From the NCBI RefSeq assembly GCF_002795405.1, contig NZ_PHGZ01000004.1:62001-126000 (forward strand): a DNA stretch of 64,000 nucleotides, in the 5' to 3' direction. The position numbers and the translations under genes are program-made. Under the pieces are notes generated by a model that saw only the letters and a list, made by a program, of their open reading frames with translations, did no database searches and was not told the DNA's origin. The stretch comes from Caviibacterium pharyngocola. GTDB lineage: Bacteria > Pseudomonadota > Gammaproteobacteria > Enterobacterales > Pasteurellaceae. Position 1 is the stretch's first letter, and each line of letters opens with the position of its first letter. Shown here piece after piece: positions 9,874-60,142 of the stretch.

Positions 9874-9985
9874 AATGTTTCAACACAGAACCTCACAAGA
9901 GCAAGGTCCTGTGTGTTGCTCCGAATTGGAAGAGGTTACGCTTCTTCCAATTAAATTATTTGCCATAAATGGCGGGGTTTCAACC
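9874..9985 (-). repeat. Dispersed structured element, copy A (112 bp)
   Basis: Read on the minus strand, it begins GGTTGAAA, continues with a GCC/GGC hairpin (9962-9973) and the linker ATAATTTAAT, then a 10-bp perfect hairpin (9943-9952 with 9924-9933). Next comes a long hairpin (9909-9918 with 9881-9888, inner ACCT/AGGT), and it ends TGTTGAAACATT. Copies B (60056-60142) and C (52369-52475) share the ends and linker; B lacks the middle hairpin. Minus is taken as the sense because A/C mismatches become G-U pairs on that strand. It fills the gap between hinT and ycfL. Function unknown. Confidence 0.75.
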
Positions 9986-10001
9986 ATAAGGTAGATATTT
10001 G

Positions 10002-10349
10002 ATGAAAAAAACCGTTTCTCTGCTTTTTTGCACCGCACTTTTAACGGCGTGCGGCTCAAGTGCGCCGAATTTAGTCGGCACGACAAAGCCTATTTTAACC
10101 ATCGAATCGAATTTAGCACCGCTGATCGAGGCTGAAGCAAACAGCGATTCCGCGTGGGTCAAAAACACCTCCGACCGACCGCTTAGCCTCGATTACGGCG
10201 TATTTTGGTATGACAAACTCGGCGTCACTCAATTCGAGCCGAATGCCTTTTCTTCATTATATTTGGACAGAGCGCAAAAAATCGCCGTGCCGCTCGCTCG
10301 CCCGACGGCGGAAAGCGTTAATTACCGTTTATATTTGCGTTTAAAATAA
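10002..10349 (+). CDS. ycfL: YcfL family lipoprotein
   Basis: A 115-residue predicted lipoprotein with signal peptide and lipobox LTAC (C16-17 region), followed by a small beta-rich domain. Sequence ([13 protein letters not shown]) and position between hinT and nagZ match E. coli YcfL (DUF1425). In E. coli the neighbour LpoB activates PBP1b, but no lpoB is seen here. The ATG at 10002 is preferred to the in-frame TTG one codon earlier; the ribosome site is AAGGTAG. Function unknown. Confidence 0.8.
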
Positions 10350-52368: not shown

Positions 52369-52475
52369 ATGTTTTGGGGCACGCCGTCTAATAAAATGAG
52401 ACGACGTATTGCCTTGAACGGGAAAAGTTATCCCTACCCGATTAAATTATCCGCCGGAAACGGCGGGGTTTTTAT
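52369..52475 (-). repeat. Dispersed structured element, copy C (about 107 bp)
   Basis: On the minus strand CCCCGCCGTTT, a hairpin (52466-52461 with 52456-52451) and GGCGGATAATTTAAT match copies A and B. They are followed by a middle GGG/CCC hairpin and a variable hairpin (52399-52407 with 52381-52389, where one A/C pair on plus becomes G-U on minus), ending AAACAT. It sits 18 bases before the tex start codon, so it would lie in the tex leader. On the plus strand its C-rich hairpin is followed by a T run. Confidence 0.7.
52451..52473 (+). terminator. Strong hairpin with T run upstream of greB
   Basis: CCGCCG-GAAA-CGGCGG followed by GG and T5 on the plus strand, the shape of an intrinsic terminator. 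It is the edge of repeat copy C and lies 154 bases before greB, with no gene upstream on that strand except the divergent tex leader. It could attenuate a long greB leader transcript. Confidence 0.6.
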
Positions 52476-52626
52476 CATTAAGATGAATTTCGATGAAGTA
52501 AAAATTCGATATAGGATACTGTTTTTATACATAACGCTCAAATATTTCTTGGGCAATTCACTAAATTCGCGCGAATTTTGCGAGGTATGTTACAATTTAT
52601 TCAAAATCCTTACGCAATATTATGTT

Positions 52627-53103
52627 ATGTCTAAATCAAATTATATTACTCGCTCGGGCTGGAACGCCTTGGATCAAGAATTAAAATTTCTCTGGAAAGA
52701 AGAACGACCGAAAGTCACCCAAGCGGTGTCCGACGCCGCCGCGCTGGGCGATCGCAGTGAAAATGCGGAATACATTTACGGTAAGCGCCGTTTGCGCGAA
52801 ATCGACCGCCGTGTGCGTTTTCTGAGTAAGCGCTTAGAAGTGTTGCAAATCGTCGATTACAATCCGAAACAAGAAGGCAAGGTGTTTTTCGGCGCGTGGG
52901 TGGAGTTGGAAAACGAAGACGGCGAACAAAAACAATATCGTATCGTTGGTTGCGATGAGTTCGATCCGGCGAAAAATTGGATTTCTATCGACAGCCCCGT
53001 CGCCCGCGCCTTAATCGGCAAACAAGTAGATGATGAAGTCAAGGTTTCCGCGCCGTCAGGACGTTTAACCTTATTTATCAATCGTATTTGGTATGAAAAA
53101 TAA
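52627..53103 (+). CDS. greB: Transcription elongation factor GreB
   Basis: GreB rescues backtracked RNA polymerase by stimulating transcript cleavage. The ATG at 52627 gives 158 residues, exactly the E. coli length, starting MSKSNYITRSGW. It has an N-terminal coiled coil with acidic tip (DAAALGDRSENAEYIYGKRRLREID, D and E near 39-46) and the C-terminal FKBP-like domain. A longer in-frame ORF runs back to 52369, but that part has no family similarity and overlaps repeat copy C, so it is not counted. Confidence 0.95.
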   Translation: MSKSNYITRSGWNALDQELKFLWKEERPKVTQAVSDAAALGDRSENAEYIYGKRRLREIDRRVRFLSKRLEVLQIVDYNPKQEGKVFFGAWVELENEDGEQKQYRIVGCDEFDPAKNWISIDSPVARALIGKQVDDEVKVSAPSGRLTLFINRIWYEK

Positions 53104-59646: not shown

Positions 59647-60036
59647 ATGACTACCATTATTCATACCAACAAGGCGCCGGCAGCGATCGGGCCTTATGTT
59701 CAAGCCGTTGATTTGGGCAATTTAGTTTTCACGTCGGGACAAATTCCGGTCAATCCGGCAACCGGCGACGTGCCGGCAGACATTACTGCACAAGCGCGCC
59801 AATCTTTAGAAAATATCAAAGCTATTATCGAACAAGCCGGATTACAGGTTGCCGATATTGTTAAAACAACGGTTTTCGTAAAAGATTTAAACCAATTCGC
59901 CGTAGTCAATGCGGAATACGAAAAGTTTTTTAAAGAAAATAATCATCCGAATTTTCCGGCGCGTTCTTGCGTAGAAGTTGCACGCTTGCCGAAAGATGTC
60001 GGCATTGAAATCGAAGCCATCGCGGTGCGCAAATAA
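59647..60036 (+). CDS. ridA: 2-iminobutanoate/2-iminopropanoate deaminase RidA
   Basis: RidA hydrolyses reactive enamine/imine products of PLP enzymes. The 129-residue protein has family motifs APAAIGPYVQAVDLGNLVFTSGQ, the arginine in PARSCVEVARLPKDVGIEIEA (R at about 105) and the C-terminal Glu. Placed 51 bases after pabC, a PLP enzyme, which fits but does not prove a link. Separated from rpe by repeat copy B. Confidence 0.95.
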   Translation: MTTIIHTNKAPAAIGPYVQAVDLGNLVFTSGQIPVNPATGDVPADITAQARQSLENIKAIIEQAGLQVADIVKTTVFVKDLNQFAVVNAEYEKFFKENNHPNFPARSCVEVARLPKDVGIEIEAIAVRK

Positions 60037-60055
60037 AACGCAAGATCGACCGGAA

Positions 60056-60142
60056 GGTTGAAAGCCCGCCGTTTATGGCGGATAATTTAATTGAGGACAA
60101 CACATAGCCCTCGCGCTTATGAGGTCTATGTGTTGAAACATT
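60056..60142 (+). repeat. Dispersed structured element, copy B (87 bp)
   Basis: It starts GGTTGAAAG, then hairpin CCGCC (60066-60070) with GGCGG (60077-60081), the linker ATAATTTAAT (60082-60091), then a 10-bp perfect hairpin (60098-60107 with 60126-60135, inner CCTC/GAGG), and ends TGTTGAAACATT. It lacks the middle hairpin of copies A and C. It lies 22 bases before the rpe start codon and would be in the rpe leader on the plus strand. Confidence 0.78.

Follow-up and report, generated by a model that had tools for sequence, protein, structure and literature searches.

A REP2/CREN-like dispersed repeat of Caviibacterium pharyngocola with a seat at start codons: a probable mobile leader cassette

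The genome of the Pasteurellaceae species Caviibacterium pharyngocola carries a dispersed, structured repeat of about 129 bp which, judged by its sequence, is homologous to the REP2/CREN repeats of Neisseria and is of the same kind. Comparison with relatives places the repeat between two copies of the native ATG of an ATG|AA site, with the native upstream sequence and an ATG on its left and a new Shine-Dalgarno sequence (SD) and a further ATG on its right, and its seat at start codons is well supported. The best explanation, and in our judgment a probable one, is that the repeat is a non-autonomous mobile leader cassette of the REP2/CREN kind that inserts at ATG|AA, mostly at start codons. Three copies, A, B and C, lie in the window, by which we mean the whole 64,000-nucleotide stretch that was analysed (contig NZ_PHGZ01000004.1, positions 62,001 to 126,000 of the forward strand). 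A preliminary description of these copies had called them an element of unknown kind, a verdict that the homology to REP2/CREN overturns; that they match no known family held for Rfam, a search of the window giving 0 matches above the gathering score. That description lacked both the seat at start codons and the ribosome-binding site that the repeat carries.

The wider search for copies that had been put forward as a check was productive, both within this genome and in further carriers beyond it. With a full copy as the blastn query, 25 distinct places in the 2.49-Mb, 43-contig C. pharyngocola genome match the repeat; of the 30 rows obtained in the window's own genome, five were dropped, namely L038, a weak hit, and L033-L036, in which the palindromic middle part matched itself in antisense. 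The spacing from left ATG to right ATG is 129 bp in the five copies that are most like one another. Read on the sense strand, the order is ATG-TTTCAACAC, the first of three hairpins, a middle one with a conserved GGTTACGCC loop region, a last one, GGTTTCAACC and CATAAGG-(10 nt)-ATGAA; the unit itself comprises TTTCAAC, the three hairpins, GGTTTCAACC, the SD and G-ATG. The 3' end of the repeat (..GGTTTCAACCATAAGGTAGATATTTG|ATGAA) lies past the borders first drawn for it. Among the 21 copies of the window genome with an intact 3' end, ATGAA is present in every one and an AAGG Shine-Dalgarno sequence in 20, and the 3' end has been lost in 4 of the 25 copies (L019, L023, which is copy C, L024 and L031). 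Two scar copies, at lptM (L026) and nrdG (L027), retain ATGTTTCAACCATAAGGTAGATATTTGATGAA alone, the block between two GTTTCAAC words having gone, a pattern that is as expected for deletion between direct repeats flanking the hairpins; scars of this type are 27 bp long and keep the new SD. Two more copies, L032 and L037, appear to be older scars. At one gene, copies lie at both the start and the end (L017 and L031), and the copy at the end seems to supply the gene's last codons (..EMFQHTTPQKS).

A covariance model was built from 20 sequences, of which nine came from the window genome (copy A included, B and C left out), two from Cricetibacter and nine from Neisseria gonorrhoeae. Searched against the window with filters off, it found exactly three places, namely A, B and C; together with the 25 places in the genome, this bears out the original claim that three related structured copies exist. 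Copy A is full-length on the plus strand, extending from its left ATG to the ATGAA of the downstream gene (9875-10006; model E 3.8e-27, also recovered by blastn as L015). The stretch first given as 9874-9985 was too short: copy A continues to 10006, through the SD and the start codon with which it closes. Its left ATG (9875-9877, plus) is read as the start-codon copy on the 5' side by analogy with the empty sites of rlmH, lolA, rdgB and rsmA described below. A first hairpin of the CAACAC..GTGTTG type, recognised from sequence and folding, occupies 9880-9918; the middle hairpin, with its conserved GGTTACGC loop region, is drawn at 9924-9952 from sequence, alignment and covariation; the last hairpin, GCCATAAATGGC, is placed at 9962-9973 from sequence and covariation; and an element-borne SD, AAGG, lies at 9988-9991, such a sequence being present in 20 of the 21 3'-intact copies. 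These parts of copy A are all on the plus strand. The gene that starts at the right-hand ATG of copy A (10002-10349, plus) appears lipoprotein-like by eye and has a DUF1425 match below the Pfam cut-off.

Copy B (52369-52497, plus; model E 6.5e-9) is diverged and lies in the gap between greB and a divergent gene that we take to be tex, for which the only match is to an S1 domain. Its right ATG, at 52493, opens ATG AAG TAA alone, and greB starts at 52627. From the left ATG of copy B, an open reading frame (ORF) continues in frame through the repeat and into greB (window 52369-53103; real start 52627). Copy C (60034-60141, recognisable from about 60054 to 60141, minus; model E 2.5e-6) lies in the gap between a ridA-like gene and rpe, antisense to both, and has neither a middle hairpin nor the 3' SD-ATG end, which has been lost. 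Copy A fits the start-codon pattern; copies B and C do not. The features originally listed for the copies are real, with the letters B and C apparently swapped: it is A and the copy at 52369 that have the middle hairpin and the AAACAT end, and A and the copy at 60056 that have TGTTGAAACATT. The sense strand, proposed as minus for A and C and plus for B, was reversed in all three, and is plus for A, plus for the copy at 52369 and minus for that at 60056. It could be supposed that these are chance hairpins, or the rho-independent terminators of three flanking operons, and the last hairpin of copy B is indeed followed by GGGGTTTTT. However, such a T-run is absent from the other full copies, and near-identical dispersed copies, each closing with SD-ATG, stand immediately before genes; the 25 places in the genome, the gonococcal copies and the covariance-model matches refute this reading, to which we give practically no credence.

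The hairpins themselves are a consistent property of the family. A full copy (L009) folds with a z-score of -6.3 as RNA and -6.9 as DNA relative to shuffles, a gonococcal copy with -3.9, and a copy of the third lineage discussed below with -2.5 as DNA, weakly better than shuffles. In the 20-sequence alignment, which spans three hosts, 92.9% of cells are paired in common helices; the figure is 84.6% when the window-genome structure is mapped onto the alignment, because Neisseria pairs the first hairpin in another way. Across the 20 sequences, 39 cells have changes on both sides, compared with 15.9 in shuffles and a range of 3-12 in slid controls, and 9 pairs have such changes, compared with 5.3 in shuffles, all of these figures being inflated by the relatedness of the sequences and by the derivation of the structure from the same alignment. 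Compensatory change in the hairpins is evident from this alignment, and the 39 double-changed cells uphold the earlier observation that pairing is kept where sequence has changed. The accompanying suggestion of selection on the hairpins, of a hairpin mobile element, or of both, likewise gains support from the covariation, the many dispersed copies and the empty sites in relatives. The hairpins may serve the movement of the element in the form of single-stranded DNA, or may act within the leader in the form of RNA.

The position of the repeat relative to genes is strongly biased. In 19 of the 21 3'-intact copies of the window genome, the right-hand ATG is the start codon of a gene, the exceptions being L009 and copy B. 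Twelve of the 19 downstream genes are named by NCBIfam (rdgB, lolA, rlmH, rsmA, dsbE, lptM, nrdG, lptD, a GlpR-type regulator, rfaC, trmA and an RluE-like gene), with the qualification that rdgB, dsbE and the RluE-like gene passed the cut-off of a broader NCBIfam model and missed that of the narrowest. The other seven have a Pfam match, which is above cut-off for DUF3298, Chalcone_3, Ribonuclease_T2, SIMPL and EamA and below it for DUF1425 and Tad. The word ATGAA occurs 165 times in the window, at 13 predicted starts, 121 times inside genes and 31 times elsewhere. Set against the resulting background of 13 in 44 ATGAA words outside gene interiors, 19 of 21 copies at starts has a nominal binomial P of about 1e-8, which is a guide only, as one window and a crude gene finder supplied the background and relatedness makes the copies less than fully independent. 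Of 13 full copies, 11 of them from the window genome and two from Cricetibacter, six have an SD of at least 4 nt before the left ATG and seven do not; the corresponding share is 8.7% for random positions and 48 of 64 for predicted starts, the choice of which itself used the SD. Moreover, seven of the eight youngest copies (L009-L016, at least 92% identical to the query) are already at starts, which leans toward the insertion step, rather than selection, as the origin of the start-codon bias. A further possibility, an upstream ORF that is conserved and coupled to the SD, was set aside: the ORF opened by the left ATG stops upstream of the gene's ATG, or overlaps it, in 27 of 27 full copies, and we do not claim it as selected because neither its frame nor its stop is constant and a stop would be met in most random frames as well.

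Sites that lack the repeat in relatives indicate what its arrival may have added. At rlmH, the repeat is found in the 45 nt before the gene in 0 of 29 relatives, and in at least five of them (L103, L104, L107, L109 and L120) the stop codon TAA of the upstream gene abuts ATGAA directly. The window genome reads ..GCTAA-ATG, then the repeat, then ATG-AAAATT, so that its TAA-ATG junction is the same as that of the empty relatives. For rsmA, lolA, rdgB, dsbE, nrdG and waaC, the repeat is present in the 60 nt before the gene in 0 of the 30 loci read (of 67 rows), and the upstream sequence matches in some. The rsmA upstream stretch GGGATTTTGTTTTATAAT is common to the relatives G014 and G007 and has one change in G018, the repeat standing at the ATG, between this stretch and the gene. 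At lolA, AAAGGAAAA is kept, as in G014, and rdgB has kept AGGA ahead of the left ATG. These comparisons are across relatives, with no same-species pair of filled and empty sites among them. The single ATG of the relatives, together with the native upstream sequence to the left of the repeat, implies that insertion added the element plus one ATG, and from these empty sites we infer that the repeat is mobile.

Mobility of this sort need not involve a transposase. The repeat might instead have spread through recombination, or through template switching, at short stretches of SD-ATGAA identity in a host with natural competence, which many Pasteurellaceae have. Many copies have SD..ATG ends on both sides, the flank of copy A contains what we take to be an uptake-signal word, and a cognate enzyme was not found among three IS200-like genes tested, three observations that would favour such a route. 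The match at the junctions nevertheless extends little beyond ATGAA, no longer match between left and right flanks is apparent by eye, and the exact 3'-end pattern is missing from almost all other Pasteurellaceae genomes surveyed, many of them competent; we consider this route improbable.

Copies of the repeat family can be recognised in at least three lineages. The exact 3'-end pattern, which misses diverged copies, occurs in 4 of 140 Pasteurellaceae genomes and is real in two, the window genome with 16 matches and Cricetibacter osteomyelitidis DSM 28404 (G018), the second carrier in the family, with 2. The single matches in the two other genomes (L054 and L057) were read and rejected as chance. 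By blastn, 13 of 61 genomes had a row at E up to 0.1, with strong rows in the window genome and Cricetibacter only and the other 11 at E 0.006-0.09; a pattern scan of named genomes returned 22 stretches, two of them in Cricetibacter (L086 and L089) and the other 20 presumed to be chance. Between the window genome and Cricetibacter, the element is 92-93% identical, compared with 75-78% for the DNA of rlmH, rdgB and rsmA, and the two Cricetibacter copies stand before genes other than those of the window genome. An element more conserved than the genes, in front of different genes, points to horizontal movement or strong constraint.

Outside the Pasteurellaceae, a class-wide survey found the repeat in 2 of 369 genomes, an undercount given that 8 candidates per genome were scored under strict filters; the two are the window genome and G466, a member of another gammaproteobacterial family. 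A 40-genome survey of the latter family added one more carrier, G567, and blastn within the family gave eight rows in G466, three in G567 and none in four other members. Only two copies of this lineage are clearly at starts, one of them immediately before alaS. The other (L164) lies behind a Csc2-family CRISPR gene and immediately ahead of an ORF that is about 209 aa long and has no Pfam match; the remaining copies are not clearly at starts. In G567, a copy (L208) lies in frame inside a restriction-subunit-like ORF, presumably of a type I system, and adds about 34 codons without a stop. A CRISPR array with 34 copies found of GTTACGAATCCCCATGCGGGGTTATGAC plus spacer (L171, 13996-16084) lies near the Csc2-bearing cas cluster that has the repeat after csc2. 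A relationship between the left end of the third-lineage copies and a CRISPR repeat was rejected, as the array beside one copy has a different repeat. Searches of phages, E. coli genomes and viral contigs, the last with one exact 20-base pattern, gave no match.

The Neisseria copies came from a blastn search of a plasmid collection (PLSDB), in which two N. gonorrhoeae records of 2.17 Mb, NZ_CP119140.1 and NZ_CP119142.1, matched the repeat at 75-77% identity over query bases 1-113. Both are filed there as plasmids, and their size of about 2.17 Mb looks chromosomal. One of these records, searched with its own copy, gave 39 blastn rows; an inserted element splits two of the copies, so that some rows represent fragments of a single copy. 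Among 21 gonococcal loci whose 3' ends were examined, ATGAA is kept in 17, and 14 of these open an ORF of at least 71 aa; the count excludes 9 of 30 loci (truncated copies, second pieces, or ends not found), and 9 further rows were without a locus. Gonococcal copies stand before rsmA, murJ and a LysR regulator (by Pfam) that we take to be crgA, among others. At rsmA (ksgA), the repeat lies at the start codon in both the window genome and N. gonorrhoeae, two insertions that are apparently independent because near relatives of the window genome are without the repeat there. Three gonococcal copies (L141, L143 and L144) have within the repeat an insert bounded by TATAGTGGATTAAC.., presumably Correia-like.

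What is described of these repeats in Neisseria raises the question of whether selection for regulation, rather than insertion, could have placed them. CREN is described as a 150-bp element upstream of nhba in strains like MC58 and absent in 8013 (PMC5079597, PMC9031163), NHBA is reported to be induced by epithelial-cell contact in the former and not in the latter (PMC5079597), a CREN-dependent induction of CrgA is reported (PMC9072670), and REP2 repeats are said to influence pilC1 and crgA (PMC3898611). The responses of NHBA and CrgA, along with the conserved hairpins, would suit a regulatory leader retained for coordinated control, in which only sense copies before genes are kept and insertion is not start-specific. 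Yet the genes served here, with roles in rRNA and tRNA modification, LPS and lipoprotein export, and nucleotide metabolism, have no obvious shared pathway, the presence of seven of the eight youngest copies at starts leaves little time for selection, and the action of a leader does not require exact placement at ATG|AA. We regard this explanation as possible, though unlikely.

We return to the mobile leader cassette as the preferred reading. Such an element would spread by insertion at ATGAA, with a putative enzyme supplied in trans. Where it enters a gene start, the original SD and ATG would remain upstream, with that ATG opening a short upstream ORF, and the transcript would carry the three hairpins as a 5' leader. 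The gene would then be translated from the element's own SD and right-hand ATG, so that the gene would tolerate the insertion, which might also change its expression. The 27-bp scar with its new SD, seen at L026 and L027, would result from deletion of the hairpins that lie between the two GTTTCAAC words.

If this is correct, CREN, called specific for pathogenic Neisseria (PMC5079597), would be recast as a mobile start-codon cassette of distant hosts, with Pasteurellaceae and another gammaproteobacterial family now among its carriers and with a seat between the native start codon and its copy. This suggests how a repeat can enter such genes as rlmH, lolA, lptD and alaS without disrupting them. 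It also becomes testable whether the contact response seen in Neisseria belongs to the element itself or to the genes in which it happened to land. In the titles and abstracts we could consult, we found no report of REP2 at a start codon or ribosome-binding site, of REP2 in Pasteurellaceae, or of mobile start-codon repeats; the original REP2 and genome papers may mention a ribosome-binding site. More tentatively, and with the odds somewhat against it, REP2/CREN may be the earliest described example of a broader class of mobile leader cassettes, the insertion machinery of which itself selects ATG|AA starts. Were that so, cassettes of this wider class, bearing a replacement ribosome-binding site, could enter essential genes harmlessly and provide them with a shared structured 5' leader.

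With regard to candidate mobilisers, a cognate transposase was not found among three IS200-like Y1-transposase genes tested, two from the window genome and one from Cricetibacter, none of which is bounded by the ends of the repeat. These genes were rejected as mobilisers because the repeat's ends are absent around L097 (read as L205), L098 (L206) and L096 (L207); L205 contains only the scar copy L026, about 3 kb off, and L207 one unrelated ATGTTTCAA word. Systems with which the repeat may be compared include elements with IS200/IS605-type ends, their non-autonomous derivatives (PATE), and REP/RAYT. It resembles these in its hairpins near both ends, its want of terminal inverted repeats, a fixed short left target and a similar right-end word, and it differs from an IS200/IS605 derivative (PATE) in sharing no ends with the three Y1-transposase genes tested and in its strong start-codon bias.

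A second comparison is with Correia elements (NEMIS/CREE), ERIC and the BOX/RUP/SPRITE MITEs, which are, like the repeat, short, dispersed, structured and mostly non-coding. Elements of this type can alter the transcripts they enter, and classical MITEs have terminal inverted repeats and target duplications (PMC3049150). Unlike a classical MITE, the repeat shows by eye no terminal inverted repeat (TTTCAAC.. against CAAATATC.., read inward); as to target-site duplication, it has an ATG on both sides where relatives have a single one, and one ATG may be the element's. The closest likeness is to REP2/CREN, with which it shares the order of left ATG, TTTCAACAC, hairpins, GGTTTCAACC, SD and ATGAA, the placement upstream of genes (19 of 21 3'-intact copies in the window genome), and a class of size and copy number, 129 bp at 25 places here against 59-154 bp and 26 copies given for Rep2 of N. 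meningitidis (PMC2267715). The two differ in the pairing of the first hairpin, in the 3' tail, in a shorter linker, and in the host, which is here a member of the Pasteurellaceae.
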